A stretch of DNA of 64,000 nucleotides from the NCBI RefSeq assembly GCF_002931555.1, contig NZ_PSTZ01000007.1:434001-498000 (forward strand). The letters run 5' to 3'. Below the pieces are notes generated by a model. It searched no databases and was not told the DNA's origin. It was given only the letters and a program-made list of their open reading frames with translations. Made by a program: the position numbers and the translations under genes. Source of the stretch: Pseudoclavibacter sp. RFBB5 (GTDB taxonomy: Bacteria; Actinomycetota; Actinomycetes; Actinomycetales; Microbacteriaceae). Each line of letters starts with the position of its first letter. Within the stretch, counting starts at the first letter, position 1. This document shows, in pieces, positions 5,819 to 46,053 of the stretch.

Positions 5819-7897
5819 TCACCCCTTGGTGACGTGCCCGGCTCGTTCCATGGTCCGGAGGTCTTGCTTCAGCGCCGAGAGCTCATCGCGAAGGCGGGCG
5901 GCGAGCTCGAACTTGAGCTCGCTGGCCGCGTCGAGCATCTGCGCGTTGAGGTCAGAGATCATGTTCTCGAGCTCGCGTGCGCCGGATGCGGCGAGACCCT
6001 CTCGCTTGAGCTTAGGTGTCGTCTGCCGCTTGTTGTCGCCCTTGCCGCGAGATGCGAGGAGGTTCTCGGTGTCCTGCCCCTCACGCATGAGCGACTCCGT
6101 GATGTCTGCGATCTTCTTGCGCAGCGGGGTCGGGTCGATGCCGTGCTCCTTGTTGTAGGCGAGCTGGCGGTCGCGGCGCCGGTCGGTCTCCTCGATGGCT
6201 TGCGCCATGCTGTCGGTGATGCGGTCGGCGTACATGTGCACCTCGCCCGTCACGTTTCGGGCGGCGCGTCCGATGGTCTGGATGAGGGACGTGCTGGAGC
6301 GCAGGAACCCCTCCTTGTCGGCGTCCAGGATCGCGACGAGCGACACCTCCGGCAGGTCGAGGCCCTCGCGGAGGAGGTTGATGCCGACGAGCACATCGTA
6401 GAGTCCGGCACGAAGCTCCGAGAGGAGCTCCACCCGGCGCAGCGTGTCGACGTCGGCGTGCAGGTAGCGGACCCGGACGCCGTTCTCGCCGAGGAAGTCA
6501 GTGAGCTCCTCTGCCATCTTCTTGGTGAGGGTCGTGACGAGGACTCGCTCGTCGCGATCTGCGCGGACTCGGATCTCCTCGAGCAGGTCGTCGATCTGGC
6601 CCTTTGACGGCTTCACGATGATCTGCGGATCGACGAGGCCCGTCGGGCGGATGATCTGCTCGACGAACCCGTCAGCTTGCGCGAGCTCGTACTTGCCCGG
6701 CGTCGCCGACAGGTACACGGTCTGACCGACGCGGTCGCTGAACTCGTCCCACCGAAGCGGTCGGTTGTCGAGGGCGCTCGGCAGGCGGAATCCATGGTCG
6801 ACGAGCGTGCGCTTCCGCGAGGCGTCACCCTCGTACATCGCGCCGATCTGCGGCACGGTCACGTGCGACTCGTCGATGACGGTGATGAAGTCGTCCGGGA
6901 AGTAGTCGATGAGGCAGTGCGGGGCCTCGCCGGGCGCACGACCATCCATGTGCCTCGAGTAGTTCTCGATGCCGGAGCAGAAGCCGATCTGCTCCATCAT
7001 CTCCAGATCGAAGGAGGTTCGCATGCGGAGCCGCTGGGCTTCGAGCAGCTTCTGCTCGCGCTCGAAGACGCCGAGGCGATCGTCGAGTTCGTCGCGGATC
7101 TGGCCCATGGCCCGCTGCATCGCATCCGCACCTGCCACGTAGTGCGAGCCAGGGAAGACGCTCACGGAGTCCATGGAGCGGACGACGTCACCGGTCAGCG
7201 GGTTGAGGGCCGTCAGCGCCTCGATCTCGTCGCCGAACATCTCGATCCGGATCGCGAGCTCCTCGTAGACGGGGATGATCTCGATCGTGTCGCCCCGAAC
7301 TCGGAAGGTGCCGCGTTGGAAGGCCACGTCGTTGCGCTGGTACTGCATGGTGACGAAGCGCCGGAGCAGCTCCTGGCGCGGGATGCGGTCTCCGACGTGG
7401 AGCGCGAGCATCGAGTTGAAGTACTCCTCCGGCTTCCCGAGGCCGTAGATGCAGGAGACCGTGGAGACGACGATGACGTCGCGCCGACTCAGGAGCGAGT
7501 TCGTCGTGGAGTGCCGGAGCCGCTCGACCTCCTCGTTCACCGAGCTGTCCTTCTCGATGAAGGTGTCGGTCTGCGGGACGTACGCCTCCGGCTGGTAGTA
7601 GTCGTAGTAGGAGACGAAGTACTCGACGGCGTTGTTCGGCATGAGCTCGCGGAACTCCGTCGCGAGCTGCGCCGCCAGGGTCTTGTTGTGCGCTAGCACG
7701 AGGGCCGGGCGCTGCAGCTTCTCGATGAGCCACGCGGTCGTGGCGGATTTTCCGGTTCCGGTCGCCCCGAGCAGGACGACATCCGGTTCGCCGGCATTGA
7801 TGCGACTCGCAAGCTCGTCGATGGCCTTCGGCTGGTCGCCACTCGGCGTGTACTCGCTGACGACTTCGAAGGGACGGACGCTGCGTGTTGCTTGCAT
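5819..7897 (-). CDS. uvrB: UvrABC excinuclease subunit B, helicase-like
   Basis: 692 aa from the chosen start. UvrB verifies the lesion and recruits UvrC. Visible are the Walker A motif GATGTGKS, the tyrosine-rich beta-hairpin ([10 protein letters not shown]), helicase motifs ([13 protein letters not shown]) and a C-terminal UVR domain that binds UvrC. The start MQATRSV was preferred to an in-frame codon 63 nt upstream, because the upstream part is not UvrB-like and crosses the dps terminator hairpin. TACACT lies exactly 6 nt before this ATG and there is no ribosome site, which predicts a leaderless mRNA. A LexA-like box overlaps the promoter. Confidence 0.97.
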
Positions 7898-22341: not shown

Positions 22342-22427
22342 GCCGGCTTGGCGGAATGGCAGACGCGGTGCACTCAAAATGCTCTGTCCGAGAGGGCGTG
22401 TGGGTTCGAATCCCACAGCCGGCACCA
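22342..22427 (+). tRNA. tRNA-Leu (CAA anticodon)
   Basis: 86 nt including an encoded CCA end. The acceptor arms GCCGGCT and AGCCGGC pair fully. The D-arm region reads GGCGGAATGGCAGACGC, the anticodon loop is CTCAAAA with CAA at 22375-22377, a long class II variable arm (TGTCCGAGAGGGCGT) follows, and the T-arm is GTGGGTTCGAATCCCAC. The anticodon stem has one U/U mismatch at its second pair. It is single copy here and lies at the left edge of the accessory stretch. Confidence 0.97.
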
Positions 22428-23683: not shown

Positions 23684-23736
23684 CGTGCGCGCGCACGGCG
23701 CGTGGCCTTGCATCAGCCTTAGGCACCCCTTACCGT
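23684..23736 (+). promoter_or_regulatory. Candidate control region of the GltB-like gene
   Basis: TTGCAT (23708-23713) and TACCGT (23731-23736) are 17 bp apart and could be -35 and -10 elements. A 14-bp palindrome CGTGCGCGCGCACG (23684-23697) lies just upstream. No GlnR-like GTnAC-N6-GAAAC arrangement was seen between 23603 and 23861. Low certainty. Confidence 0.3.
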
Positions 23737-23861
23737 ACGTATACCGCTTTGCCGCTGGGAAGCTCGCACCGCACCAAGTGCCGACTCCCGCAGACGAAAC
23801 CTCCAACGTTGCAGTGTTCGCGTCGCCTTTCCCCTCGCTGCTGTCCCCTGGAGGCATCTTC

Positions 23862-26800
23862 GTGTCGCAAAAAATCACCGGTCTGTACCGTCCCGAGCTC
23901 GAGAAGAGCGACTGTGGCGTCGGCTTCATCACGCGGAAGGACGGCGTCCAGCATCACGACGTCATCCGGCTCGGCAACGAGGCGCTCTGCGCGATCCCGC
24001 ACCGCGGAGGGATGTCAGCTGAGGGCGTCGGGGACGGCGCCGGCGTCAACGTCGACCTGTCAGTGGAGTTCTTCAGTGCGCTCGTCGGCCGACAGCTCAC
24101 GGCCGGCCTCTTCGGGGTCGGCAACTTCTTCATGCCGAGCGACGAGGCACAGCTCGAGGCCGCTCACGAGCTCATCTCCGGCACGCTGCGGGCCAACGGC
24201 ATCGAGCCCGTGCTCGTGCGCGACGTTCCCGTCGACCCCTCCGTCGCGCGCCCGGCCGCGGCGCACTACCAGCTCCCCATCGTGCAGTGGGTGTTCGAGG
24301 CCGCGGAAGGATGGAGCCGAGCCGAGATGGATTCGGCGGCGAACGCCGCACTCCTCGACATCGAGGGCGTCGCGTACGCGGACCCCGCGCTCCAGGGCCT
24401 CTACCCCCTCTCCCTGAGCGCGCGCACGCAGACCCTCAAGGGGCGCCTCAACTCGAACGAGGTCATCCCCTACTTCACCGACCTGCTCGACGAGCGCCAG
24501 TCGGTGCGCACGCTGTTCTTCCACACGCGCTTCTCGACCAACACGGAACCGCACCCGAGCATGGCGCAGCCGTTCCGCATGCTCGCGCACAACGGCGAGC
24601 TCAACACCGACCGCAAGAACCGCCTCTCTGAGAACGCCCTCGCGACCGCCCGCGGTCGCGTCATCGTGCATCCGCCCGGCCAGTCGGACAGCAGCCGGTT
24701 CGACCAGACCCTCCAGAGCCGTGTCTTCGACGACGGGCTCGAGCTCGTCGAGGCCGTCGTCTCGACCATGCCGCCGGCGTGGGAGAACGACCGCACGCTG
24801 ACCCCCGAGGTGCGCGACATGCTCGAGTTCTTCTCCCTGTACGAGGAGAAGAACGACGGTCCGGCCGCCCTCGTCTTCAGCAACGGCGACATCATCGGCA
24901 CCCGGCTCGACCGCCTCGGCCTGCGGCCGCTGCGTACCGTCGAGACGGACGACTACCTCGTCGTGAGCTCCGAGGCGGGACAGATCCAGTTCGCGCCGGG
25001 CACGATCATCCGCCGCGGCCGCATCGAGGCTGGCGGGATGCTGTACTTCGATCACCGTCAGGGACGCAGCTACCGCACGAGAGAGGCGCTCGAGCAGCTC
25101 GCCAGGCGCCGCGACTACAGCGCGGAGCTCGAAGCGGCCAGAGTCAACATCGAGGACATCGAGCTGCCCGAGATCACCCGAGGCAGCTCCACGCTCGGCT
25201 ACGACGGCGACCTCTCCCCCGCCGGCAGGTACGTTGCGTACTCGCTCAACCAGGAGAGCTTCAAGTTCATGATGGACCCGATGCTCGCGAACGGCACCGA
25301 GCGCATCTCCGCGATGGGCTACGGCAATGCGATCAACGCGCTCTCCGACCAGGAGGGCGGCCTCGCGAAGTACTTCTCGCAGCGGTTCGCGCAGGTCACC
25401 AACCCGCCGCTCGACAGCATCCGCGAAGCCGACGGGATGACGCTCCGCGTGGCGCTCGGCGCGAAGCCGGACGGCGGCAACCGCACGAGGCAGATCGTCG
25501 TGCCGTCCCCGATCCTCAGCCACCTCAACATGGTCGCCCTGCGGGAGCAGCGCCTCGCGCCGCTCGAGCGCTTCGAGATCCTCTACGCCCCCGTGCAGGG
25601 TGACGCCGCGGCCAACGCGGCATCACTGCGCGACGCGGTCGAGCGGGTCTGCGACGCCGTGGCCGAGTTCGCGCGCACGCAGGGCGGCATCGCGGTCCTC
25701 ACTGATCGCAACGTGTCCAGGGAGGCGGCAGCCATCCCGCTCATCCTGGTGATCGCGGCCGTGAACCAGCGGCTGATCCGCGAAGGGCTCAGGCTCCGGG
25801 TCTCGATCATCGCCGAGAGCGGCCAGCTGCCGTCCTCGCACCACATCGCGTCGGCGCTGGGCTTCGGCGCGGCCGCCGTCTACCCGCTCTGCGTGCGGCT
25901 GCGCGCGGAGGAGCGCTACCCGAGCGGCGCCGCATCCGTCGACACGATCACCGAGACGGACCTCGCGGTCGCGCGCTTCGCGAAGGCTGCGGAGAAGTCG
26001 CTCATGAAGACGATGGGTCGCGTCGGCCTCTGCACGGTCGAGAGCTACATCGGTGGCGAGTTCTTCGAACCCAACTACCTCGACACGAAGGACCCCGTGC
26101 TCGCCGGCTACTTCCCGCACCTCGCGGCGCCCGTCGGCGGGGTGCGCTTCGAGCGCATCGCCCTCGCGGTCGCCGAGTGGCACGAGCGGGCCGTCGCCGT
26201 CGCCGACGAGAAGCAGATCCCGCTCCTCGGACTCTTCAAGGAGCGCCAGGAAGGTGCAGGCCATTCCTTCGGGACCACGGCCGTTCGCGGGTTCATCGAC
26301 ATGACAGAGGAGCCGCGCGTCCTCGAGTCGCCGGGGGCTGCTGAGGCGACGGAACCGGGCGAGGCGGCCGCCGAACCGCACCCGGGCCACGACTCGCTGC
26401 GCCTCCTCACGCTCGGCCAGCTCGGCGACGCCTTCGGGCTCGACGACAAGGCCTACACGTACAACGGATACGGGGCGCTCACCCCCGAGCAGATCGACGC
26501 GTTCGAGATCACCCCCGGCTACCGCGACTTCGTCACCAACACGATCCAGGAGCGCACGCGCCGACCATCCGCGCTGCGCGATGTCCTCTCGCTGCCCGCC
26601 GACGTGCGCCTCGCGTCGACCCCCTCCGAGTTCGCGCGCGAGCTCAGTCGGTTCTCGCTCGACGGGAACAGCGACGTCCGCGTGCGCGGCCTCGAGATCG
26701 AGCGCGTCGAGAACGAGCGCTACCTGCTCACCCTGACGGGTCCCCTCGACGACGAAGCCGCGCGCTACGACGCGCTCGCGCAGGTCCTCACCGCACTCGA

Positions 26801-29468
26801 TGGCGAGGCCATCGTCGAGACCACGGCGACGGATGCAGGACTCGAGGTCCGCGTGGTCCCCGGCATCTCCAGCGTTCTGAGCCTGCTGAGGACGGCTCCG
26901 GACAGCATCTCGCTCGACGAAGTGCAGCCGGCGCACGAGATCGCCCGCACGCTCGCCTCCGGCGCCATGAGCCACGGGGCGCTCGTCGCCACGGCGCACG
27001 AGTCGGTCGCGCACGGCACGAACATGGTCGGCGGCATGTCGAACTGCGGTGAGGGTGGCGAGCACATCACCCGCTACAACACGATCCGCGGCTCGCGCAT
27101 CAAGCAGTTCGCCTCCGGACGCTTCGGCATCTGGGCCGGCTACCTCGCCGACCCGATGCTGCAAGAGCTGGAGATCAAGATCGGCCAGGGCGCGAAGCCC
27201 GGCGAGGGCGGGCAGCTGCCTGCCCCCAAGGTCACGGTCGACATCGCCGCGGCCCGCGGCGGCACCCCTGGCGTCGAGCTCGTCTCCCCGCCCCCGCACC
27301 ACGACACGTACTCGATCGAGGACCTCGCCCAGCTCATCCACGACTGCAAGGCGGCGAGAGTTCGCGTCGTCGTCAAACTCGTCTCGTCGGAGGGCATCGG
27401 CACGATCGCCGTGGGCGTCGCGAAGGCCGGCGCCGACGTCATCAACGTGGCGGGCAACACGGGCGGCACGGGGGCTGCGGCCGTCACGAGCCTCAAGTAC
27501 GCGGGCCGCTCGGCCGAGATCGGCGTCGCCGAGGTGCACCAGGCGCTCCTCGCGAACGGACTCCGGCAGAAGGTCGTGCTGCGCTGCTCGGGCGCCCACC
27601 AGATGGCAAGCGACGTCGTCACCTCGGCGCTCCTCGGCGGGGACAGCTTCGAGTTCGGCACGACGGCGCTGATGATGCTCGGCTGCGTCATGGCGAAGAA
27701 CTGCAACATCAAGTGCCCAGCCGGCCTCACGACGAACCCGGAGGTGTTCGACGGCGACCCGCGCGCGCTCGCGCAGTACCTGCTCAACATCTCCCACGAG
27801 GTGCGCGAGATCCTCGCCTCCCTCGGCCTTCGCTCGCTCGGCGAGGCACGCGGCCGCGGCGACCTGCTGCAGCTCCTCGCGCACCCCGCGAGCGTCGGCG
27901 ACCTGGATGTGCGCGACATGCTCGCGAAGGTGCCGGAAAAGATCGTCACCGACCCCATCTCCCTCGAGAAGGACTTCAGCATCGACGACTCGCTCGTCGA
28001 GCAGATCCGGGCCGCGCTCATCGAGCGCGCTGAGCCCGCAGTTCTCATCGAGGGCGTCGAGATGGGCAACCGCTTCAAGTCGGTCGGTGGCCAGCTGTCC
28101 ATCGACATCGAGCGGATGCTCAACTACGAGCTCGACGCCGCGACCGTGGCGGACCTTTCCTCGGTCGTCGAGGACGACCGCGGACGGCGCTCGCTCGTCG
28201 ACGGCAGCGTGACCGTCACGACCCAGGGGTCGGCGGGCCAGTCGTACGGCGCGTTCAGCAACGACGGCATGCGCCTCGTGCACACGGGAACCGCGAACGA
28301 CGGCGTCGGCAAGAGCCAAGGAGGCGGCACCATCGTGATCCTCTCCCCCGGCGGAGGTGGCTCGCAGCCCGGCGAGAACGTGCTCATCGGCAACTTCGCA
28401 CTCTTCGGCGCGACCGGTGGACGCACGTTCGTGCAGGGCGAGGCGGGTGACCGCTTCGCGGTGCGCAACTCCGGCGCCACGGCCGTCGTCGAGGGCATCG
28501 GCGACTTCGGCTGCGAGTACATGACCAACGGAGCCGTGCTCAACCTCGGGAGCGCGGGCAAGGGCCTCGGCAACGGGATGAGCGGCGGCTTCGTCTACCA
28601 GTACGACGCGGACGGGTCGACTCTCGCCAACGTCAGCGCCGACTCGCTGCTGGTGTTCCCCATCACCGACACGAGCCACGGGGACTTCCACGAGGCGGCC
28701 GTCAAGCTCCTGCTGCACTGGCACCTCGACGCGACCGGGTCTCCGCTCGCCGCGCGGATCCTCGGCGACTGGGAGGCGGAGCGCAGCAAGTTCTTCTGCG
28801 GCATGCCCCGGGCGCTGCTCCTGTACCAGGACGCGGACGAGATCCTCGCGGCCAAGGGCCGCAAGGAGCTCCTCGACGAGCTCTCGGCGTCGATCGCGAC
28901 CCAGCGCATCCGCCTCTTCAAGGAGGCCTACCGAGGCGCTCACCCGGTCATCGGCGGGCGCACGCCGAGTGGCTCCGAAGCGGACCGCGACGACCGGTTC
29001 GCGCTGCTCGCCTCCTACGCCGTGCTGAACATCTCGCAGGGCATCGCGCTCACACGCGTCCCGGACGCGAGCGGACCCGACGACCCCCGGGTGGTGGATG
29101 CGGTGCGGAAGCTGATCCTCACCGAGGACTTCTTCGTCATGCAGCGCGTCAACAAGTACCTGCGCGGGGAGCTCGAGCGCTTCGAGGACGCTGCGCTGGC
29201 GGCCCTCATCGCTGCCAAGCGCCTGGAGGATTACAAGGACGCGCTCCGTCTGCGCAACGTGCGCAGCATCGACGCGCCTGGAACGACGGGATGGATCATG
29301 CACCAGAACGTGAAGAACCGCCGCCTGCTCGAGTCGGTTGGCACCGACGAGATCCTGGCGACCGCGGCGCTGGTGGACATCGCCCGCGACCTCGTCGTCA
29401 CGGAGAAGCGTCAGCAGCCTTCGGCCGCCATGGCGGGTCTCACGGCAACCGCCGGAGGTCTGGCATGA
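23862..29468 (+). CDS. Divergent glutamate synthase large-subunit homologue (GltB-like)
   Basis: 1868 aa from a GTG with TGGAGG 7 nt upstream; an ATG 177 nt earlier is rejected. It has a class II glutaminase domain with predicted nucleophile Cys18 (DCGVGF) and HNGELNT, and an FMN domain (SGAMSHG, IKQFASGRFG, GQGAKPGEGGQLP). The 3Fe-4S cysteines are at 1275, 1281 and 1285, one residue tighter than in the canonical copy. The C-terminal GxxG helix domain is followed by extra sequence. It has about 157 more residues than the canonical GltB before the SGAMS motif and about 198 more after it. Active-site loops differ: AGNTGGTGA for SGHDGGTGA, NCGEGGE for NTGEGGE. A glutamine-dependent amidotransfer/reduction on 2-oxoglutarate or a related acid is likely; the substrate is uncertain. 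The stop overlaps the diflavin reductase start. Confidence 0.88.
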   Translation: MSQKITGLYRPELEKSDCGVGFITRKDGVQHHDVIRLGNEALCAIPHRGGMSAEGVGDGAGVNVDLSVEFFSALVGRQLTAGLFGVGNFFMPSDEAQLEAAHELISGTLRANGIEPVLVRDVPVDPSVARPAAAHYQLPIVQWVFEAAEGWSRAEMDSAANAALLDIEGVAYADPALQGLYPLSLSARTQTLKGRLNSNEVIPYFTDLLDERQSVRTLFFHTRFSTNTEPHPSMAQPFRMLAHNGELNTDRKNRLSENALATARGRVIVHPPGQSDSSRFDQTLQSRVFDDGLELVEAVVSTMPPAWENDRTLTPEVRDMLEFFSLYEEKNDGPAALVFSNGDIIGTRLDRLGLRPLRTVETDDYLVVSSEAGQIQFAPGTIIRRGRIEAGGMLYFDHRQGRSYRTREALEQLARRRDYSAELEAARVNIEDIELPEITRGSSTLGYDGDLSPAGRYVAYSLNQESFKFMMDPMLANGTERISAMGYGNAINALSDQEGGLAKYFSQRFAQVTNPPLDSIREADGMTLRVALGAKPDGGNRTRQIVVPSPILSHLNMVALREQRLAPLERFEILYAPVQGDAAANAASLRDAVERVCDAVAEFARTQGGIAVLTDRNVSREAAAIPLILVIAAVNQRLIREGLRLRVSIIAESGQLPSSHHIASALGFGAAAVYPLCVRLRAEERYPSGAASVDTITETDLAVARFAKAAEKSLMKTMGRVGLCTVESYIGGEFFEPNYLDTKDPVLAGYFPHLAAPVGGVRFERIALAVAEWHERAVAVADEKQIPLLGLFKERQEGAGHSFGTTAVRGFIDMTEEPRVLESPGAAEATEPGEAAAEPHPGHDSLRLLTLGQLGDAFGLDDKAYTYNGYGALTPEQIDAFEITPGYRDFVTNTIQERTRRPSALRDVLSLPADVRLASTPSEFARELSRFSLDGNSDVRVRGLEIERVENERYLLTLTGPLDDEAARYDALAQVLTALDGEAIVETTATDAGLEVRVVPGISSVLSLLRTAPDSISLDEVQPAHEIARTLASGAMSHGALVATAHESVAHGTNMVGGMSNCGEGGEHITRYNTIRGSRIKQFASGRFGIWAGYLADPMLQELEIKIGQGAKPGEGGQLPAPKVTVDIAAARGGTPGVELVSPPPHHDTYSIEDLAQLIHDCKAARVRVVVKLVSSEGIGTIAVGVAKAGADVINVAGNTGGTGAAAVTSLKYAGRSAEIGVAEVHQALLANGLRQKVVLRCSGAHQMASDVVTSALLGGDSFEFGTTALMMLGCVMAKNCNIKCPAGLTTNPEVFDGDPRALAQYLLNISHEVREILASLGLRSLGEARGRGDLLQLLAHPASVGDLDVRDMLAKVPEKIVTDPISLEKDFSIDDSLVEQIRAALIERAEPAVLIEGVEMGNRFKSVGGQLSIDIERMLNYELDAATVADLSSVVEDDRGRRSLVDGSVTVTTQGSAGQSYGAFSNDGMRLVHTGTANDGVGKSQGGGTIVILSPGGGGSQPGENVLIGNFALFGATGGRTFVQGEAGDRFAVRNSGATAVVEGIGDFGCEYMTNGAVLNLGSAGKGLGNGMSGGFVYQYDADGSTLANVSADSLLVFPITDTSHGDFHEAAVKLLLHWHLDATGSPLAARILGDWEAERSKFFCGMPRALLLYQDADEILAAKGRKELLDELSASIATQRIRLFKEAYRGAHPVIGGRTPSGSEADRDDRFALLASYAVLNISQGIALTRVPDASGPDDPRVVDAVRKLILTEDFFVMQRVNKYLRGELERFEDAALAALIAAKRLEDYKDALRLRNVRSIDAPGTTGWIMHQNVKNRRLLESVGTDEILATAALVDIARDLVVTEKRQQPSAAMAGLTATAGGLA

Positions 29469-31201
29469 GCGCGCCGTTCATCCCGGTGGACGCCCCGTTC
29501 ACCAAGGAGCAGCAGGCCTGGCTCTCAGGTTTCATGGCGGGCCTGGCCGCGATCCCGACGGCCGACAAGGAGGTGCAGTCGGCGACGCTCACGCTCGAGA
29601 TCCTGATCGGCACGCAGACCGGCAACTGCGAGTTCGTGGCTGAGGACCTCGCGGCCGCGGCCCGCGGCGCGGGTCTCGCGGCGACGCTCGCCCCGCTCGA
29701 CTCCGTCTCGCCCGAGGCGCTCGGCGGGGAACGCAACATCGTCGTCGTCACGTCCACGTACGGCGAGGGCGAGATGCCGGACAACGCGGAGCTGTTCTGG
29801 GAGGAGCTCTCCGCCGACGGTGCGCCGCGTCTTGAGTCTGCGAAGTTCGCCGTGCTGGCGCTCGGTGACAGCAGCTACGACGACTACTGCCAGGCAGGCA
29901 AGCTCATTGACACACGCCTCGAGCAGCTCGGCGCCACTCGGGTGGTGCAGCGCGTCGACTGCGACGTCGACTACGAGGACGCAGCCGCCGCCTGGATCGC
30001 CGAGGTTGTCGAGCACTTCGCTGCGCTGCAGCCGAACACGGCAGCCCCGGCGCCCGCCGCCGCGGCAGCCCCTGCCCGCGTGCGCTCTCCCTGGAACAAG
30101 AAGACCCCGTACCCGTCGCGGCTCGCCGTGAATCGCGTGCTCTCCGGGCCGCGGAGCTCGAAGGAGATCCGCCACTACGAGTTCGAGCTCGGCGACAGCG
30201 GCATCACGTATGCGGCGGGCGACGCCCTCGCGGTCGTCCCGGTCAACGCGCCGGCACTCGTCGACGAGCTTCTCGGACACCTCGGATTCTCGGGAGACGA
30301 GGCGCTCGAGAACGGCTCAAGCCTGCGCACGGCGTTCGAACGTGAACTCGACATCACGGCGCCGTCGAAGGACCTGCTCGCGGAGCTCTCGGCGCGCGAG
30401 CCAAGCGGCGCTGTCGCGGAGCTCGTGCAGCGCGGCGACAAGGCGCAGCTCGACAGCTGGCTGTGGGGGAAGGACACGCTCGACGTCCTCAAGGCCGCAC
30501 AGGGCGTGGCGTTCGGTGCGGACGAGTTCGCGGCGCTGCTGCGCCCGATGCAGCACCGTGCGTACTCGATCTCGTCGAGCCCCCTGGCCAGCCCGGACCG
30601 CATCCACCTCACCGTCGCCTCCGTCCGCTACGGCAGCGAGGCCCGCCGGTACGGCGGCGTCTGCTCGACGTTCCTCGCCGACCGTGTGGGTGAGGCCGAC
30701 CCGGTGCACCTGTTCCTGCAGCCGAACGCTGCGTTCCGCGTGCCCGAGGACGATGACGCGCCCATGATCATGGTCGGCCCTGGCACGGGCATCGCGCCGT
30801 TCCGCGGCTTCCTGCACGAGCGCGAGGCGCGGGGCGCCTCCGGGCGCAACTGGCTGCTGTTCGGTGACCAGCATCGAGAGAGCGACTTCATCTACGAGGA
30901 CGAGCTGACGGGGCTCAGCGAGCGGGGTGTCCTCGACCGCCTCGACCTCGCGTTCTCGCGCGACCAGGCCGAGAAGATCTACGTGCAGACGCGGATGCTC
31001 GAGCACAGTGCAGAGCTCTACGCGTGGCTCGAGGAGGGTGGCCACTTCTACGTGTGCGGCGACGCTTCGCGCATGGCAAGGGACGTCGATGATGCGCTGC
31101 ATGCCGTGGTCGCGCGGGAGCGCGTAGTGACGGCTGAGGTGGCTGCCGAGTACGTCGGCGCCCTGAAGCGCCAGAAGCGCTACGTGAGGGACGTGTATTG
31201 A
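29465..31201 (+). CDS. CysJ-like diflavin reductase (FMN/FAD, NADPH)
   Basis: 578 aa. The N-terminal segment PFTKEQQAWLSGFMAGL is typical of CysJ-like proteins linked to assimilatory reductases. A flavodoxin domain follows (about residues 43-185: IGTQTGNCE, STYGEGEMPDN, LALGDSSYDDYC). An Ala/Pro linker (192-205) leads to the FAD domain (RAYSISSSP, YGGVCSTFL) and the NADPH domain (GPGTGIAPFRGFL, LFGDQHRESDFIYEDEL, YVCGDASRMARDV), ending in an aromatic residue (RDVY) as in CysJ. No sulfite reductase hemoprotein gene is nearby. The ATGA overlap with the GltB-like gene suggests it supplies electrons to that protein in place of GltD. Confidence 0.92.
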   Translation: MSAPFIPVDAPFTKEQQAWLSGFMAGLAAIPTADKEVQSATLTLEILIGTQTGNCEFVAEDLAAAARGAGLAATLAPLDSVSPEALGGERNIVVVTSTYGEGEMPDNAELFWEELSADGAPRLESAKFAVLALGDSSYDDYCQAGKLIDTRLEQLGATRVVQRVDCDVDYEDAAAAWIAEVVEHFAALQPNTAAPAPAAAAAPARVRSPWNKKTPYPSRLAVNRVLSGPRSSKEIRHYEFELGDSGITYAAGDALAVVPVNAPALVDELLGHLGFSGDEALENGSSLRTAFERELDITAPSKDLLAELSAREPSGAVAELVQRGDKAQLDSWLWGKDTLDVLKAAQGVAFGADEFAALLRPMQHRAYSISSSPLASPDRIHLTVASVRYGSEARRYGGVCSTFLADRVGEADPVHLFLQPNAAFRVPEDDDAPMIMVGPGTGIAPFRGFLHEREARGASGRNWLLFGDQHRESDFIYEDELTGLSERGVLDRLDLAFSRDQAEKIYVQTRMLEHSAELYAWLEEGGHFYVCGDASRMARDVDDALHAVVARERVVTAEVAAEYVGALKRQKRYVRDVY

Positions 31202-31220: not shown

Positions 31221-31382
31221 GTGCTTGCCGGTGACGTCCTCGGTCCGCATGGCCGCACCTCCACACTGGAGCTGTCCGACGTGCGAGCGCAGTGCGTGGC
31301 CGTGGTGACGCGGCTCGAGATCGTGGGCGCCGACACGCACCGCGCATGGGAGCAGATGAAGGACTCGCTGCCCGCCACATGA
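31221..31382 (+). CDS. Small hypothetical frame or gene remnant
   Basis: 53 codons from a GTG. Codons have the high GC3 of real genes here, and the product (LELSDVRAQCVAVVTRLEIV, then ADTHRAWEQMKDSLPAT) looks like two helices. No ribosome site and no family recognised. It may be the tail of a gene lost when neighbouring DNA was rearranged. The frame is open further left, into the reductase, without its own start. Confidence 0.3.
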   Translation: MLAGDVLGPHGRTSTLELSDVRAQCVAVVTRLEIVGADTHRAWEQMKDSLPAT

Positions 31383-31413: not shown

Positions 31414-33036
<1,623 letters not shown>

Positions 33037-33202
33037 GATAACCTCCCCCAAGATCACCACCAGCCTAGCACTGGACCGCACCAAAAACCAGTGATTGACC
33101 AGGGATTGTGGAAAAACTCAGAACCTGTGTTCGACGCCGAACCGATCATCTGCCAACCCCTGGTCGGCGCAGTATCTCGACGCACCCCCTGCCCCTGACT
33201 TC

Positions 33203-38782: not shown

Positions 38783-40243
38783 TCAGAGCGAAATCGCGCG
38801 CTCGGTGGCGAGGATCGGCTCGGGAAGTTCCGTCGACTGTTCAAGATACCGGTCGACGGAGGCGGCCGCCGCACGTCCCTCGGCGATCGCCCAGACGATG
38901 AGCGACTGGCCGCGGCCCGCGTCGCCCGCGACGAACACGCCGGGCAGCTCCGTCTCGTACTCCGCCGTGCGATCCAACGCCCCGCGGGACGTGAAGGGAA
39001 GCTGGAGCTGCGGCTCGATCGTGTGCCTCTCCGGTCCCGTGAATCCCATGGCGAGCAGCACGAGGTCGGCGGGCAGCTCACGCTCTGTTCCCGCCTTCGG
39101 ACCGCGCGAGCCATCCGCGCGGAACTCCGTCTCGGCGAGGCGGATCGCGCGCACGCGCCCCGACTCGTCGCCGATGAACTCGACCGTCGACGCCTGGAAC
39201 GCTCGCTCGCCGCCCTCTTCGTGCGAGGTCGACACCTCGAACAGCGTCGGCGTCGTCGGCCAGGGCTGGTGCGCCGGGCGCTCCGTCGGCGGCTCCTTGC
39301 CGATGGCGAGGTTCGTGACCGAGGCTGCGCCCTGGCGGTGGGACGTGCCGATGCAGTCGGCTCCCGTGTCGCCACCGCCGATGACGATGACGTGCTTGTC
39401 TTCAGCGTGGATCTGCGAGGCGAGGTCGTCGCCTGCGACCACGCGGTTCGACTGCGTCAGGAAGTCCATCGCGTAGTGGACGCCCTTGAGCTCACGCCCG
39501 GGAACGGGCAGGTCGCGCGGGACCATCGCCCCTGTGCAGACCACGACGGCGTCGTAGCGCTGTCGCAGGTTGTCCCACGTGATGTCCCGGCCGATCTCGA
39601 TGCCGGTGCGGAACCGAGTGCCCTCGGCGCGCATCTGCGAGAGGCGGGCGTCGAGGACTGACTTCTCCATCTTGAAGTCCGGGATGCCGTAACGGAGGAG
39701 TCCCCCGATGCGGTCGTCGCGTTCGAAGACGGCGACCGTGTGGCCCGCACGCGTCAGCTGCTGGGCGGCGGCGAGGCCGGCGGGGCCCGAGCCGACGACG
39801 GCGACCGTCTTGCCCGTGAGACGCTCGGGCGGGTGCGGACGCACGTTGCCCTCGGCGAACGCCGTGTCAGCGATCGACTGCTCCACGCGCTTGATCGTGA
39901 CGGCCGGCTGGTTGATGCCGAGCACGCACGACGACTCGCACGGAGCCGGGCACAGGCGGCCCGTGAACTCTGGGAAGTTGTTCGTGGCGTGCAGTCGCTC
40001 GCTCGCTCCGGCCATGTCACCGCGGAACGTCAGGTCGTTCCATTCCGGGATGATGTTGCCGAGGGGGCAGCCCTGGTGGCAGAAGGGCACGCCGCAGTCC
40101 ATGCAGCGCCCCGCCTGGCGGCGCAGCTGGGTTGGCTCCTGCGGGTCGTAGACCTCACTGAAGTCCATGATCCGCACGGGCACTGGACGGCGCGTCGGGA
40201 GCTCCCGCTCGCGGTTGGTGAGGAATCCTCTCGGGTCAGCCAC
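38783..40243 (-). CDS. gltD: Glutamate synthase small subunit (NADPH-dependent)
   Basis: 486 aa. It passes electrons from NADPH through FAD and iron-sulfur clusters to GltB. The N-terminal 4Fe-4S cysteines are in CMDCGVPFCHQGCPLGN and CPAPCESSCVLG. The FAD site is VAVVGSGPAGLAAAQQL and the NADPH site VIVIGGGDTGADCIG, with the C-terminal VFVAGDAGRGQSLIVWAIAEGR. The GTG start has GGAGG 7 nt upstream and overlaps the gltB stop by 8 nt, so the two are translationally coupled. Confidence 0.97.
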   Translation of the reverse strand: MADPRGFLTNRERELPTRRPVPVRIMDFSEVYDPQEPTQLRRQAGRCMDCGVPFCHQGCPLGNIIPEWNDLTFRGDMAGASERLHATNNFPEFTGRLCPAPCESSCVLGINQPAVTIKRVEQSIADTAFAEGNVRPHPPERLTGKTVAVVGSGPAGLAAAQQLTRAGHTVAVFERDDRIGGLLRYGIPDFKMEKSVLDARLSQMRAEGTRFRTGIEIGRDITWDNLRQRYDAVVVCTGAMVPRDLPVPGRELKGVHYAMDFLTQSNRVVAGDDLASQIHAEDKHVIVIGGGDTGADCIGTSHRQGAASVTNLAIGKEPPTERPAHQPWPTTPTLFEVSTSHEEGGERAFQASTVEFIGDESGRVRAIRLAETEFRADGSRGPKAGTERELPADLVLLAMGFTGPERHTIEPQLQLPFTSRGALDRTAEYETELPGVFVAGDAGRGQSLIVWAIAEGRAAAASVDRYLEQSTELPEPILATERAISL

Positions 40244-43200
40244 GGGTCGCCTCCAGAATCTCGTGCCAGGTCGTGCTGTCGTCGGGGTCGCCACCGCGTT
40301 CGACGGCGGCGTTGCGGATCTCGGTGACCTTCGCGTAGTCGCGAGGGAGCACCTTCGTGAACTCCTTCGACACCGCGTCGAAGTTGTCGAGCATCTCGCG
40401 GGCCAGCTGCGAGTCGGTCTCCGTGGCATGCCGTTCGAGGATGTCGCGGAGGATGTCCGCATCGGCGCTCGTGAGCGTCGTGAGACCGAGCTCGCCCGTC
40501 GAGAGCATGTCGGGGTTGACGAGCTTCGGGTCGAGCTTGTGCACGTAGGCGATGCCGCCCGACATGCCGGCGCCGAAGTTCTTGCCGGTCTCGCCCAGGA
40601 TCACGGCGAGGCCTCCCGTCATGTACTCGAGCGCGTGGTCGCCCACGGCTTCCGCGACGGCCGTCGCACCGGAGTTGCGCACGAGGAAGCGCTCGCCGAC
40701 GACGCCGCTGAGGAACATCGTGCCGCTGGTCGCGCCGTAGCCGATGACGTTGCCGGCGATGACGTTCTCGTGGGACTTGAACGGCGCGCGCTCGTCAGGG
40801 CGCAGGATGATCTCCCCACCGCTGAGCCCCTTGCCGACGTAGTCGTTCGAGTCGCCGACGAGGCGGATGCGGATGCCATTCGGCAGGAACGCACCGAGCG
40901 ACTGCCCGGCGGTCCCCCGCAGCTCGATGTCGATCGTGCCGGCCGGGAGCCCGTGTTCGCCGTGCCCGCGCGTCACGTGGTGTCCGAGCATCGTGCCGAC
41001 GGCGCGGTCGGTGTTGATGACGTCCATCGACACCTTGACCGACTCGCCGTTCTCGAGGGCCTTCTCGGCGAGCTCGAGGAGCTTCTGGTCGAAGTGCTGG
41101 TCGAGCTCGTGCTCCTGGGTGACGAGGCTGCGCGTGGGCGCGTCGCCGAACTCGTGGCCCGTGAGGACGCGGGAGAGATCGAGGCCCTCGGTCTTCCAGT
41201 GATGCATGGCGTCGTCGACTTCGAGCAGCTCGCGCTTGCCGATGATCTCGTCGAGCGAGCGCACGCCGAGCTCCGCGAGATACTCGCGGACCTCCTGCGC
41301 CACGAACTCGAAGAAGTTGACGACGTGATCCGCCTGGCCGGTGTAGCGCGAACGCAGCTCAGGGTTCTGAGTCGCGACGCCGACGGGGCACGTGTCGAGG
41401 TGGCAGACGCGCATCATGATGCAGCCGGAGACGACGAGGGCGGCCGTCGCGAAGCCGAACTCCTCGGCGCCCAGCAGCGCGCCGACGATGACGTCACGGC
41501 CCGTCTTGAGCTGCCCATCCACCTGCACGACCACTCGATCGCGGAGGCCGTTGAGCATGAGCGTCTGCTGGGTCTCGGCGAGGCCGAGCTCCCAGGGCGT
41601 TCCCGCGTGCTTGAGCGAGTTGAGCGGCGAGGCGCCGGTTCCGCCGTCGTGTCCGGAGACGAGGACCACGTCGGCGAGTGCCTTTGTGACCCCGGCGGCC
41701 ACTGCCCCGATGCCGTTCTCGCTCACGAGCTTCACGTGGATGCGCGCAGACGGGTTGGCCCGCTTCAGGTCGAAGATGAGCTGCTTGAGGTCTTCGATCG
41801 AGTAGATGTCGTGGTGCGGGGGCGGCGAGATGAGCCCGACGCCCGGCGTCGCGTGGCGTGTGCGGGCCACCCACGGGTAGACCTTCGTCGGGGGCAGCTG
41901 CCCGCCCTCGCCCGGCTTCGCGCCCTGCGCGAGCTTGATCTGGATGTCGTCGGCGTGCGTCAGATACATGCTCGTGACGCCGAAGCGCCCGGAAGCGACC
42001 TGCTTGATCGCGCTGCGGCGCTCCGGGTCGAGCAGACGCTCGACATCTTCGCCGCCCTCGCCCGTGTTGGACTTGCCGCCGATGCGGTTCATCGCGATCG
42101 CGAGCGTCTCGTGCGCTTCCTTCGAGATGGAGCCGTAGCTCATCGCTCCGGTCTGGAAGCGCCTGAGGATCTCGGAGGCTGGCTCGACCTCGTCGATCGG
42201 CACGGGAGGCCGTTCGCCGACCTTGAGCTTGAAGAGGCCTCGCAGCGTCATCGTCTCGGCTGCCTGGTCGTCGACGAGCTTCGTGTACTCCTTGAAGATG
42301 TCGTAGCGACCCTCGCGCGTGGAGTGCTGGAGGCGGAAGATCGTGTTCGGGTTGAAGAGGTGGGGCGGCCCCTCGCGGCGCCACTGGTACTCGCCGCCGA
42401 TGTCGAGCGGGCGGTGCGATGCCGGAGCCGCCTGGGCGGGGTAGGCGTGGCGGTGACGCAGCTCGTTCTCGCGAGCGATGCCCTCGAGCCCCATGCCGGA
42501 GATCTTCGACGCCGTGCCGGTGAAGTACTCGCTGACGAGCTCGTTCGAGAGGCCCACGGCCTCGAAGCACTGCGCACCAGCGTACGAGGCGACTGCTGAG
42601 ATGCCCATCTTCGACATGATCTTCAGGACGCCCTTGCCCAGCGCCTTGATGAGGTTCGCGACCGCCTTCTCCTCGGTGACCCCGGTGAGCTTGCCCTGGC
42701 GCACCATGTCCTCGCAGGACTCCATGGCGAGGTACGGGTTGACTGCGGACGCGCCGTAGCCGAGCAGCACGGCGACGTGGTGGACCTCACGCACGTCGCC
42801 CGCCTCGATGACGAGCCCGACACGCATGCGGCGCTCGGTGCGGATCAGGTGGTGATGCACCGCGCTCGTCATGAGCAGCGATGGGATGGGGGCGTAGTCA
42901 CGGTTCGAGTCGCGGTCGGAGAGCACGAGGAATCCCGCGCCGGCGTCGATGGCGCGGTCTGCTTCCTCGCACAGCTCCTCGAGCCGCTTGCGCAGTCCCT
43001 CGACGCCGTCGTCGACGCGGTAGCAGCCGCGAAGCGTCTCGGCCGCGTCGATGCCTGGGCGCTGCTCGATGTGCTGGATCTTCGCGAGCTGGTCGTTGTC
43101 GATGACCGGGAAGTCGAGGACGACCTGGCGAGCGTGCTCTGGGCCCGCGCTCAGGAGGTTCTCCTGGGGGCCGATGCTCGTCGTGAGGCTCGTCACGACC

Positions 43201-44804
43201 TCCTCGCGGATCGCATCCAGCGGCGGGTTGGTGACCTGCGCGAAGTTCTGCGTGAAGTAGTCGAAGACGAGGCGCGGTCGGTCGGTGAGGATCGCGATGG
43301 GCGTGTCAGTGCCCATGGCGCCGATCGGCTCCGCGCCGTTCTTCGCCATAGGGGCGAGCAGGATGCGAAGCTCCTCCTCCGTGTACCCGAACGTGCGCTG
43401 GCGGCGCTCGACGGATGCGGGGGTGTGCGTCACGTGCTCGCGCTCGGGCAGCTCCGCGAGGTTGATGCGGCCCTCGTCGAGCCAGTCGCCCCACGGCTGG
43501 AGCTCGGCGAGATCGTGCTTGACCTCTTCGTCCTCGATGAGACGGCCGACCTCGGTGTCCACGAGGAGCACCTGGCCGGGACGCAGGCGCCCCTTGCGGA
43601 TGACGGTGGCTGGGTCGAGGCTGGCGACGCCGACCTCGGAGCCGAGGACGATGAGCCCGTCGGCGGTCTGGACGAAGCGTCCAGGGCGCAGGCCGTTGCG
43701 GTCGAGGGTCGCGCACACGTAGCGGCCATCGGTGAAGGCCATGGCGGCGGGGCCGTCCCACGGCTCCATGATCAGCGAGTGGTACTCGTAGAAGTCGCGA
43801 ACTTCAGCGCTCAGGTCCTCTGCGGTCTCCCACGCGGCCGGCACCATCATGTGCACGGCGTGCGACAGCGAGCGGCCGGACAGCGTGAGGAGTTCGAGCA
43901 CCTCGTCGAAGGACGCGGAGTCGCTCGCGCCCTCGGTCACGATCGGGAAGAGATCGGAGACGTCACCGAGGATCTCGGATCGAAGCTGCGACTGGCGGGC
44001 GCGCATCCAGTTGCGGTTGCCGCGCACGGTGTTGATCTCGCCGTTGTGGGCCATCATGCGCATGGGCTGCGCGAGCTGCCACGACGGGAACGTGTTGGTC
44101 GAGTAGCGAGAGTGGACGATCGCGAGCTTGGACGCGAAGCGCTCGTCGCCGAGGTCGGGGAAGAACGGCTCCAGCTGGAGCGTCGTCACCATGCCCTTGT
44201 AGGTGATCATGCGGCACGAGAGCGACATGAAGTAGACCCCGAGCGAGTGCTCCGCGCGCTTGCGCAGGCGGTAGCACTGACGGTCGAGGGACGCCCCCTT
44301 GCGCGGGTTGCCCCGGAAGTTCTGGCGCTCGCTGCGCACGTAGAGCTGCTCGATGACCGGCATCGCGGCGCGTGCGAGCTTGCCGAGCTCATCCGGCTGC
44401 ACGGGGACCTCGCGCCAGCCGATGACCCGGAGGTCCTCTTCTGCCGCGAGCTTGACGATTCCGGCCTTGACGCGCGCCCGCTCGTCAGGGTCCACCGGAA
44501 GGTAGGCGTTGCCGACGGCGTAGCGCCCCTCTGCCGGAAGCTCGAACCCGCTCACCGCGCGGAAGAACTCGTCGGGGATCTGGGTCAGGATGCCGGCGCC
44601 GTCACCCGTTCCGGCGTCCGAGCCGACCGCGCCGCGGTGCTCCATGTGGCGCAGGGCGTCGAGCGCGTGATCGATGATGTCGTGGCCCGGCGTGCCGCGC
44701 AGGGTGGCGACCATCGCGAGCCCGCAGGCATCGCGCTCATTCGCAGGGTCATAGAGACCGGCTGCTTCTGGGTAGCCATTCGTTGGAAAGGCGGCGGAGG
44801 TCAT
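40236..44804 (-). CDS. gltB: Glutamate synthase large subunit, canonical
   Basis: 1522 aa, the normal size. It transfers the glutamine amide nitrogen to 2-oxoglutarate. The glutaminase nucleophile after processing is Cys27 (DACGLAMVATL), with HNGEINTVRGNRNWM in the same domain. The FMN domain has TGAMSYGSISKEAHE (from residue 885), IKQVASGRFGV and SGHDGGTGA. The 3Fe-4S cysteines are at 1128, 1134 and 1139 (CIMMRVCHLDTC). The ATG has GAGGGGA about 7 nt upstream. A GlnR-like box lies about 130 bp upstream. This complete GltBD makes the GltB-like gene at 23862 a second system. Confidence 0.98.
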   Translation of the reverse strand: MTSAAFPTNGYPEAAGLYDPANERDACGLAMVATLRGTPGHDIIDHALDALRHMEHRGAVGSDAGTGDGAGILTQIPDEFFRAVSGFELPAEGRYAVGNAYLPVDPDERARVKAGIVKLAAEEDLRVIGWREVPVQPDELGKLARAAMPVIEQLYVRSERQNFRGNPRKGASLDRQCYRLRKRAEHSLGVYFMSLSCRMITYKGMVTTLQLEPFFPDLGDERFASKLAIVHSRYSTNTFPSWQLAQPMRMMAHNGEINTVRGNRNWMRARQSQLRSEILGDVSDLFPIVTEGASDSASFDEVLELLTLSGRSLSHAVHMMVPAAWETAEDLSAEVRDFYEYHSLIMEPWDGPAAMAFTDGRYVCATLDRNGLRPGRFVQTADGLIVLGSEVGVASLDPATVIRKGRLRPGQVLLVDTEVGRLIEDEEVKHDLAELQPWGDWLDEGRINLAELPEREHVTHTPASVERRQRTFGYTEEELRILLAPMAKNGAEPIGAMGTDTPIAILTDRPRLVFDYFTQNFAQVTNPPLDAIREEVVTSLTTSIGPQENLLSAGPEHARQVVLDFPVIDNDQLAKIQHIEQRPGIDAAETLRGCYRVDDGVEGLRKRLEELCEEADRAIDAGAGFLVLSDRDSNRDYAPIPSLLMTSAVHHHLIRTERRMRVGLVIEAGDVREVHHVAVLLGYGASAVNPYLAMESCEDMVRQGKLTGVTEEKAVANLIKALGKGVLKIMSKMGISAVASYAGAQCFEAVGLSNELVSEYFTGTASKISGMGLEGIARENELRHRHAYPAQAAPASHRPLDIGGEYQWRREGPPHLFNPNTIFRLQHSTREGRYDIFKEYTKLVDDQAAETMTLRGLFKLKVGERPPVPIDEVEPASEILRRFQTGAMSYGSISKEAHETLAIAMNRIGGKSNTGEGGEDVERLLDPERRSAIKQVASGRFGVTSMYLTHADDIQIKLAQGAKPGEGGQLPPTKVYPWVARTRHATPGVGLISPPPHHDIYSIEDLKQLIFDLKRANPSARIHVKLVSENGIGAVAAGVTKALADVVLVSGHDGGTGASPLNSLKHAGTPWELGLAETQQTLMLNGLRDRVVVQVDGQLKTGRDVIVGALLGAEEFGFATAALVVSGCIMMRVCHLDTCPVGVATQNPELRSRYTGQADHVVNFFEFVAQEVREYLAELGVRSLDEIIGKRELLEVDDAMHHWKTEGLDLSRVLTGHEFGDAPTRSLVTQEHELDQHFDQKLLELAEKALENGESVKVSMDVINTDRAVGTMLGHHVTRGHGEHGLPAGTIDIELRGTAGQSLGAFLPNGIRIRLVGDSNDYVGKGLSGGEIILRPDERAPFKSHENVIAGNVIGYGATSGTMFLSGVVGERFLVRNSGATAVAEAVGDHALEYMTGGLAVILGETGKNFGAGMSGGIAYVHKLDPKLVNPDMLSTGELGLTTLTSADADILRDILERHATETDSQLAREMLDNFDAVSKEFTKVLPRDYAKVTEIRNAAVERGGDPDDSTTWHEILEATRG

Positions 44805-44917
44805 AACTCGTCCCCTCGTCGGTGGTGCCATGGGTCGCTTGGCGGACTCGACAGAAGACTGATGTTGACGGAGCCCGTGGGGGCGGGTGCCTACAGGCGT
44901 CCGTCGGTCCATTCAGC

Positions 44918-44991: not shown

Positions 44992-46053
44992 TCACACCCT
45001 CGACGAGTCGGAAGCTTCCTTGCGCTCATCAGGTGTTTCTTCACCGTCGGGCGAGTTAGGCTTGGCTACGGAAGTTTCCTCGTCGTGAACCTCAGATTTC
45101 GCGGAGGTTTCCTCTGCGTCCGCTTCGTCCTCGTCGCCCTCATCCGACTCCTGCTCACCCAGCTCGTCTTCCTCGGCGGCCTTGGCCGCCGCTTCCGACT
45201 CCGGGTCGCGCCCGGGCAGATAGACGCTGTAGCTCAGCTGCGAGACCGGGAGGCGTGAGACGACGACGAACAGCGCGATGCCGACGATGACGAGGCACAG
45301 GGCACCGAAGACGTTCGAGCGCATGCCGAGGATGACCTCGGAGTAGTCGACGCGGATCGACTCGATCCAGATGCGACCCGTGCCGTACCAGATGAGGTAG
45401 GAGGCGAGCGTCTTGCCGGCGCGCCACCGGAACATGCGCTCGAGGAGCACGATGATCGCGATGCCCGCGAGGTTCCACAGCATCTCGTAGAGGAACGTGG
45501 GGTGGAAGAGCGTGCCTTCCGGCAGCCCGACGGGAAAGGCCGGGTTGCTCGCCTCGATCTGCAGGCCCCAGGGCAGATCGGTCGGCCACCCGTAGAGCTC
45601 ATGGTTGAAGTAGTTTCCGAGGCGTCCGACGGCCTGCGCGAGCAGCAGTCCGGGGATCAGCGCGTCGGAGAAGGCGAGCATCCGGATGCCCGTCATGCGG
45701 CTCGCGATGAAGATGCCGATCGCGCCGCCGATGAGGGAGCCGATGATGGCGTTGCCGCCCTCCCAGATGAAGAAGATGCGCCAGAAGTTCGCGCCCTCGA
45801 AGAAGTAGTCGGCGGGGTGCGTGAAGACGTGATAGAGACGCGCACCGAGCAGGCCGAGCAGGACGGCCCAGATGGCGAAGTCGACCGTGATCCACTTCTC
45901 CCCACCACGAGCGGTCAGGCGCCGGTCGGTCCACAGCACCGCGAGCACCATGCCGGCGACGATGAACAGCGCGTAGAGGTGCACCGTCAGGGGGCCGACC
46001 TCGAAGCTCGCCCAATCGAGGGGCGGGCTGGGGATTCCGGTCAGGGGCGTCAT
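44992..46053 (-). CDS. lgt: Prolipoprotein diacylglyceryl transferase
   Basis: 353 aa. It attaches diacylglycerol to the lipobox cysteine of prelipoproteins at the membrane. About seven membrane segments and the signature GRLGNYFNHELYGWPTDLPWG are present, with the conserved IWEGGNAIIGSLIGG and LYHVFTH. A highly acidic tail of about 70 residues (Glu/Asp/Ser-rich, from about residue 280) exceeds the core family length and is probably cytoplasmic and disordered. The ATG overlaps the trpA stop (ATGA), placing lgt last in the trp run. Confidence 0.97.
   Translation of the reverse strand: MTPLTGIPSPPLDWASFEVGPLTVHLYALFIVAGMVLAVLWTDRRLTARGGEKWITVDFAIWAVLLGLLGARLYHVFTHPADYFFEGANFWRIFFIWEGGNAIIGSLIGGAIGIFIASRMTGIRMLAFSDALIPGLLLAQAVGRLGNYFNHELYGWPTDLPWGLQIEASNPAFPVGLPEGTLFHPTFLYEMLWNLAGIAIIVLLERMFRWRAGKTLASYLIWYGTGRIWIESIRVDYSEVILGMRSNVFGALCLVIVGIALFVVVSRLPVSQLSYSVYLPGRDPESEAAAKAAEEDELGEQESDEGDEDEADAEETSAKSEVHDEETSVAKPNSPDGEETPDERKEASDSSRV

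Follow-up and report, generated by a model that had tools for sequence, protein, structure and literature searches.

A 64,000-nucleotide stretch of the Pseudoclavibacter sp. RFBB5 genome (contig NZ_PSTZ01000007.1, positions 434,001 to 498,000; hereafter the window, with positions counted from its first letter) carries a gene for a protein resembling GltB, the large subunit of glutamate synthase (GOGAT), directly followed by a gene for a diflavin reductase of the CysJ type. We propose that the two proteins probably form a glutamate synthase in which a flavin-only reductase replaces GltD, and that this enzyme would serve actinobacteria as a back-up for iron starvation and would be the sole GOGAT of the SAR92 family, Pantoea and the relatives of Pantoea. 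Behind this proposal stand the constant pairing of the two genes and their co-evolution, the conservation of catalytic residues, the occupation of former gltBD loci together with the absence of GltD, and the enrichment of iron boxes upstream of the pair.

The pair replaced gltBD in two lineages

Nothing speaks more strongly for a glutamate synthase function of the pair than its position: in the SAR92 family and around Pantoea it took the place of gltBD. All 13 SAR92-family genomes with the pair have hemE immediately after it, and 12 of them have aroB in front; in the remaining genome (L135) the contig ends inside the GltB-like gene, and hemE was recognized by Pfam. The four GltD-bearing relatives that were fetched all show the order aroK-aroB-gltB-gltD-hemE. 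Full-length GltD is missing from all 13 genomes with the pair, versus 4 of 80 without it (Fisher 9e-13, kinship ignored). With the GltD model TIGR01318, the genomes carrying the pair either score no higher than 35 bits or hit, at 210-214 bits, a paralogue of 591-598 amino acids (aa) that is also present in GltD-bearing relatives. In the 80 genomes without the pair, 64 exceed the GltD cut-off and 12 more have a GltD-like match of at least 272 bits (G627, G640, G642, G643 and G676-G683). Four genomes of the family (G660, G665, G673 and G684) have neither full-length GltD nor the C-terminal extension of the GltB-like protein described below.

Around Pantoea the pair entered a different slot. Of eight Enterobacterales loci, seven have the pair next to arcB and reading away from it, in the place that yhcC-gltB-gltD occupies in E. 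coli. GltD is missing from all six tested genomes with an arcB-side pair, and the enterobacterial genome G528, whose pair lies elsewhere, has GltD (861 bits). The SAR92-family proteins group in the trees with those of Rhodobacterales and Pseudovibrio, and the Pantoea proteins with Lampropedia; because these clades differ, the two replacements are separate, amounting to at least two events. We searched for GltD in the genomes of 50 of the 80 loci introduced below, and for canonical GltB in the eight below the GltD cut-off and three others: five of the 50 (two SAR92, two Pantoea and one Rhodobacteraceae) lack GltD as well as a second long GltB. In the two SAR92 genomes no PF00208 glutamate dehydrogenase scored above 27 bits; the large NAD-type family was not searched. 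The SAR92-family loci L076 and L080 are named Porticoccaceae at NCBI.

Two genes that travel together

Relatives were taken from genome contigs, and we analyzed the best 80 of 585 confirmed ones, which come from Actinobacteria, Alphaproteobacteria, Betaproteobacteria (Lampropedia) and Gammaproteobacteria. The closest among these is Pseudoclavibacter terrae (L004), with 97% identity over the GltB-like protein. The reductase lies directly downstream on the same strand in 80 of these 80 loci, three of the reductases being cut by contig ends. A profile of the C-terminal extension matched 3 of 396 Actinobacteria genomes (the window's own included), 6 of 149 in the family of Pantoea agglomerans NBRC 102470 (itself included) and 13 of 93 in the SAR92 family (G441 and G445 included); the reductase adjoins in all 22 of these genomes, of which 18 were new and four were already known (the window's, G441, G444 and G445). 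The question raised with the original prediction, which was made from the letters of the window, was whether the reductase is co-conserved with this GltB clade, and both counts answer that it is.

Plasmids tell the same story. Nine records carry a GltB-like protein matching over at least 80% of the query, and among the matches listed for the reductase (60 of 77) exactly those nine reach at least 55% identity; the other 51 reach at most 48%. Seven of the latter were opened: three encode CysJ with CysI, one a nitrate-reductase fusion and one a P450-linked reductase, one has a NirA neighbour and one lies beside an aldehyde dehydrogenase. On an Arthrobacter plasmid (L137, 3929-9632), a CysJ-type reductase shares a cluster with genes for aldehyde dehydrogenase, glutamine synthetase, a glutamine amidotransferase and cytochrome P450, a partner choice other than GltB for this type of reductase.

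Trees of 45 pairs with seven outgroups each were built by a quick method without bootstrap. They cover the window, six further loci and 38 of the 80, for which 39 had been picked and L014 dropped since its reductase is cut. In both trees the pair members form one clade against the outgroups. The distances in the two trees are strongly correlated (r 0.919 over 990 pairs from 45 rows), with the best of 300 permutations at 0.17. Because the spread is sparse, copies occur on plasmids and the phyla are mixed, horizontal transfer of the pair appears to have taken place.

Architecture of the GltB-like protein

The GltB-like gene (1,868 aa; 23862..29468, + strand; GTG start with GGAGG upstream) overlaps with its stop codon the ATG start of the reductase gene (578 aa; 29465..31201, +) as ATGA, an arrangement described from the start and borne out by the ORF (open reading frame) calls and Pfam. 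Four Pfam domains were found in the large subunit: GATase_2 (1.7e-80), Glu_syn_central, Glu_synthase and GXGXG. In order along the + strand, the protein has a class-II glutaminase domain (residues 18-420; 23913..25121), the Glu_syn_central domain (457-736; 25230..26069), an extra alpha/beta module that the canonical copy lacks (about 872-1012; 26475..26897), the FMN-binding synthase barrel (1013-1323; 26898..27830), the GXGXG beta-helix domain (1424-1601; 28131..28664) and a clade-specific C-terminal extension, all-helical in a model of pLDDT 84 (1636-1868; 28767..29465). It has 37% identity to the window's own canonical GltB, falls below the NCBI equivalog cut-off (NF008730, 1004.7 bits versus 1047), and is longer than the canonical copy in two places, ahead of the FMN barrel (by about 160 aa) and at the C-terminus (by about 190 aa), so that the extra lengths first given were right in size.

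The residues on which catalysis would depend are conserved. Cys18, the predicted nucleophile, aligns with residue 1 of A. brasilense GltS, and is invariant with its neighbouring glutaminase residues across 30 aligned rows, the canonical copy included. The same holds in 30 of 30 rows for E1064, Q1109, K1112, Q1118 and R1132 of the barrel, which align with E903, Q969, K972, Q978 and R992 of ferredoxin-dependent glutamate synthase (Fd-GltS), presumably its 2-oxoglutarate-binding residues. The motif CVMAKNCNxKCPAG is fixed in 81 of 81 sequences (80 loci and the window); its three cysteines (C1275-X5-C1281-X3-C1285; 27684..27716, +) are the predicted ligands of a 3Fe-4S cluster, and the second gap is X4 in the canonical copy. 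The alignments uphold both the retention of the glutaminase cysteine, FMN residues and Fe-S cysteines and the reality of the altered spacing, as originally claimed. The active-site loops AGNTGG and NCGEGG, also pointed out at that time, are indeed present, but their distinctiveness was overstated: they lie within ordinary variation, because the canonical A. brasilense GltS has SGNSGG and SDSGEGG.

For the C-terminal extension there was no Foldseek match to a PDB structure at E <= 0.001, and its profile had no match among PDB sequences up to E 10. The helical extension is a possible docking site for the reductase. An AlphaFold model of residues 790-1868 had a pLDDT of 62 with a badly built barrel; no conclusion on docking was drawn from it, and it does no more than hint that insert and C-terminus form modules of their own.

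The reductase lacks a sulfite reductase partner

The reductase consists of Flavodoxin_1, FAD_binding_1 and NAD_binding_1 domains (flavodoxin, FAD and NADPH domains at residues 46-177, 209-403 and 436-542). Its best PDB matches are solved CysJ chains, and it passes the cut-off of NF004859, 'sulfite reductase subunit alpha', by little (442.7 versus 432 bits) while falling below that of cysJ itself (TIGR01931, 575.5 versus 668). Sequence records pair a 'glutamate synthase-related protein' with a 'sulfite reductase (flavoprotein) subunit alpha'. The loci inspected show the pair with no gene for a sulfite or nitrite reductase as its partner, and so speak against the other possibility raised with the first account, namely that such an enzyme is the usual partner. 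Its statement that no sulfite reductase lies nearby extends to the whole genome (G000; 3.77 Mb, 98.4% complete), where the CysI model had no match at E <= 0.001, although a distant ferredoxin-type enzyme could escape, and where the only PF00667 (FAD_binding_1) match is this reductase. The CysI model likewise had no match at this threshold in five further genomes of the 14 searched, two of them from Pseudoclavibacter. Assimilatory sulfite reduction of the CysI type may be missing in the Pseudoclavibacter genomes G000, G396 and G397.

Iron boxes and a HemS-family third gene

We scored the 19-bp DtxR consensus TTAGGTTAG(G/C)CTAACCTAA, as given in PMC1382209, upstream of the GltB-like gene in all 80 loci. 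Of the 50 actinobacterial loci, 26 have a box of at least 13/19, the best one scoring 16/19. All but one of these 26 sites begin 121-222 bp ahead of the matched start; the exception begins 57 bp ahead of it. The score of 13/19 was reached by only 5 of 2,729 other 300-bp pieces of these loci, which are mostly coding, and, when the upstream stretches themselves were dinucleotide-shuffled, by 35 of 5,000 shuffles. Such a box occurs in at least half of the loci for 13 of 18 actinobacterial labels (three of the 18 being record names, not genera). A 12/19 box-like site at 45056, upstream of the canonical gltB, lies inside the lgt ORF and was taken as chance.

Other elements were seen upstream of the pair in further groups. 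Curtobacterium loci share GGTATACC followed by GTAGCATC (in L007 at about 5840-5870), and five Rhizobiaceae-type loci (L039, L041, L043, L047 and L053) have, within about 100 bp upstream, common TTGACT...TATAGG-like elements and then an inverted repeat GTCA-N-TGAC, which looks like a promoter with the operator of some regulator.

A third gene follows the pair in 30 of the 80 loci, from Streptomyces to Rhodobacterales (30 by our counting rule and 31 otherwise, the third-gene ORF of L006 starting too far upstream for the rule). By sequence comparison it belongs to the HemS family: PF05171 exceeded the Pfam cut-off in six of eight third genes scanned, and a 17-row profile matched HemS (2j0r) at 9.6e-39. 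It is present in four Pseudoclavibacter relatives. Further genes around iron uptake occur next to the pair. In Ketogulonicigenium the genes after the pair encode a hypothetical protein (HemS match below threshold, 14.8 bits), an AraC regulator, a TonB siderophore receptor and one component of an ABC transporter for siderophores, and in Loktanella a siderophore-interacting protein lies downstream. The original prediction, right about the pairing, had missed the iron boxes of the relatives, the HemS-family gene and the replacement of gltBD.

Other features of the window

The canonical genes used for comparison lie on the - strand of the window, gltB at 40236..44912 (Pfam, NCBIfam) and the gltD ORF, whose true start is probably further in, at 38783..40462; the order by Pfam is trpC-trpB-trpA-lgt-gltB-gltD, with trpB named from its neighbours. 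Upstream of the pair, a tRNA-Leu (CAA) at 22342-22427 sits between response regulator and short-chain dehydrogenase genes. Downstream, a DUF222 gene (31414-33084, -) adjoins a remnant of the HemS-family gene that is considered below. The genome also has a third, short protein (465 aa) with a Glu_synthase domain (G000:C7:114921-115892).

Discussion

A probable variant of glutamate synthase outside both known classes

The pair shares with GltBD (A. brasilense GltS, 6s6s/1ea0) the glutaminase, central, FMN barrel and GXGXG domains, as well as the nucleophilic cysteine, the three 3Fe-4S cysteines and the presumed 2-oxoglutarate residues. Unlike GltBD, it has neither GltD nor 4Fe-4S clusters and would take a diflavin protein as donor, and its large subunit differs in the C-X5-C-X3-C spacing and by the two added modules (about 160 aa and about 190 aa). 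The likeness to Fd-GltS (Synechocystis, 1ofe/1llw) is that the large subunit alone would hold FMN and 3Fe-4S and receive electrons from outside. However, the GltB-like protein has no residues opposite the Fd-GltS stretch at about 915-937, which we take to be the ferredoxin-binding one, and the pair has an NADPH reductase of its own in the operon. Since it has neither the GltD of the one class nor the ferredoxin feature of the other, the pair is a variant of glutamate synthase that is a member of neither. The reductase, for its part, has the FMN, FAD and NADPH domains of CysJ but differs from the CysJ of NADPH sulfite reductase in forming its own clade and in having a GltB-like partner instead of CysI. 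Among the papers listed by searches of the open-licence literature, we recognized none that describes this pairing.

We infer the following activity and electron path. NADPH would pass a hydride to the FAD of the reductase, whose FMN domain would deliver electrons one at a time to the large subunit, first to its [3Fe-4S] cluster and thence to its FMN, with docking perhaps mediated by the extra modules. The N-terminal domain would hydrolyse glutamine; the ammonia would add to 2-oxoglutarate placed before the FMN, giving an imine that would be reduced to glutamate. The flow from NADPH through FAD, FMN and [3Fe-4S] to FMN, in a glutamate-synthase-like clade coupled to a reductase clade of its own, was already part of the original prediction, and the trees agree with its two clades.

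What the exchange of the reductase would save is iron. The ligands of both 4Fe-4S clusters in GltBD lie on GltD. The cofactors of NADPH-GltS, as listed in PMC8097209, are FAD, FMN, one [3Fe-4S] and two [4Fe-4S] clusters, and these clusters make 11 iron atoms per alpha-beta unit. In the pair the need would fall from 11 to 3, if the 3Fe-4S cluster is kept. In Caulobacter, canonical gltBD transcripts fall at low iron, according to PMC3751524, and PMC9938188 includes lowered GltB in the iron-sparing response. (The Caulobacter low-iron gene CC_3063, a 'sulfite reductase flavoprotein' in PMC3751524, is listed there in a cluster with transporter, DUF4198 and ApbE genes and no GltB, and was not assigned to this family.) Because the swap of GltD would shed iron and canonical gltBD falls when iron is low, an iron-starvation isoenzyme that runs GOGAT on flavins is the simplest reading for actinobacteria. 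In those that keep gltBD, a DtxR/IdeR-type regulator would derepress the pair when iron is short, often together with the HemS-family protein. For the SAR92 family, as for Pantoea and its relatives, the pair would be the only GOGAT. It may have become fixed where gltBD was displaced either since iron is always scarce, as for the marine SAR92, or for other reasons.

We lean, somewhat less firmly, towards a wider view, in which the pair stands for a third class of glutamate synthase by electron donor, beside those served by GltD and by ferredoxin: a mobile and iron-sparing enzyme, retained in actinobacteria as an isoenzyme for iron starvation under DtxR/IdeR control and fixed as the sole GOGAT, in old gltBD loci, in marine SAR92-type bacteria and in Pantoea and relatives. 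The exchange of ferredoxin for flavodoxin is comparable in that a flavin protein replaces an iron-sulfur protein at low iron (PMC9938188), but here a central enzyme would swap its entire reductase subunit along with a large subunit made for it.

Weighing the evidence

Several observations weigh against the proposal. The iron box is far from universal: no Curtobacterium locus (0 of 14) has one of at least 13/19, and it is absent or weak in Pseudactinotalea, Plantibacter, one Microbacteriaceae label and two of three Rhodococcus. The window's own candidate box, TTAGGCACCCCTTACCGTA (23719..23737, +), scores only 12/19, which 6 of 213 300-bp window pieces and 59 of 1,000 shuffles of the window's upstream stretch also reach; the same position scores 13/19 in three of four other Pseudoclavibacter loci. 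In 30 proteobacterial upstream stretches, scans with Fur (19-bp) and Irr consensus sequences gave nothing consistently above controls. The window has lost its HemS-like gene, a deletion of about 950 bp relative to L004 leaving 48 C-terminal codons (about 31213/31233..31376, +), and an iron-sparing glutamate synthase leaves the role of that gene unexplained. Most pair-bearing genomes keep canonical GltD (42 of 50 over the cut-off), and Pantoea genomes have a PF00208 glutamate dehydrogenase, so GOGAT is not their only route. As for the replacements, the SAR92-family proteins form one clade, so the 13 genomes may reflect one event; several of them are incomplete metagenome-assembled genomes; and the aroB-hemE slot is not universal, the GltD-bearing G678 having aroB and its GltD-like gene on different contigs (G678 and G614 were inspected by position only, and the aroB contig of G614 is short).

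Some of these points would fit a glutamate synthase whose diflavin reductase is valuable for something other than iron, such as a better NADPH affinity, oxygen tolerance or redox tuning, the boxes being a local regulatory habit of some actinobacteria. SAR92 and Pantoea would use the pair as their only GOGAT with no iron site recognized in the five loci scanned (L076, L080, L078, L079 and L081), and Curtobacterium has no good box. We hold this to be unlikely, though the most serious of the alternatives, given that boxes are enriched in 13 of 18 actinobacterial labels, that a HemS-family gene neighbours the pair in two phyla and that the cofactors in PMC8097209 imply 11 iron atoms against 3. It appears improbable that the pair serves heme-iron acquisition, with the reductase feeding a HemS-family protein for heme breakdown and the GltB-like protein making some amino acid or other product for it. 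The HemS-family gene beside the pair in 30 loci, the iron boxes and the TonB siderophore receptor of Ketogulonicigenium speak for such a role, but by our counting rule 50 of the 80 loci have no third gene (some are cut by contig ends), the window lost its copy while the pair stayed intact, the two SAR92 and three Pantoea loci tested sit in gltBD slots with no third gene, and GltB residues are kept throughout.

The first account had allowed for a different acceptor. A glutamine-dependent reductive amidotransferase acting on another keto acid would agree with the extra modules, the altered loops and the long branch (1.66 changes per column on either side of the root) between the GltB-like clade and canonical GltB, but the five barrel residues are unchanged in the 30 rows, the loops vary as much among known GltS, and gltBD loci were taken over; we give this suggestion very little credence and have not retained it. 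Hardly any weight is left for an ordinary CysJ that merely stands beside a GltB paralogue. The NCBIfam name, 'sulfite reductase subunit alpha', invites that interpretation, whereas the reductase's own clade, the pairing in 80 of 80 loci and the lack of a CysI match in the window genome contradict it.

Implications

GOGAT is a main entry of nitrogen into metabolism and also one of the iron-rich enzymes that bacteria turn down at low iron. If an iron-sparing glutamate synthase is what the pair encodes, a change of reductase that sheds 8 of 11 iron atoms would tie the nitrogen economy directly to that of iron. The absence of gltBD from some marine and plant-associated bacteria would then have an explanation, and a single enzyme may lie hidden behind public records named 'glutamate synthase-related protein' and 'sulfite reductase subunit alpha'.

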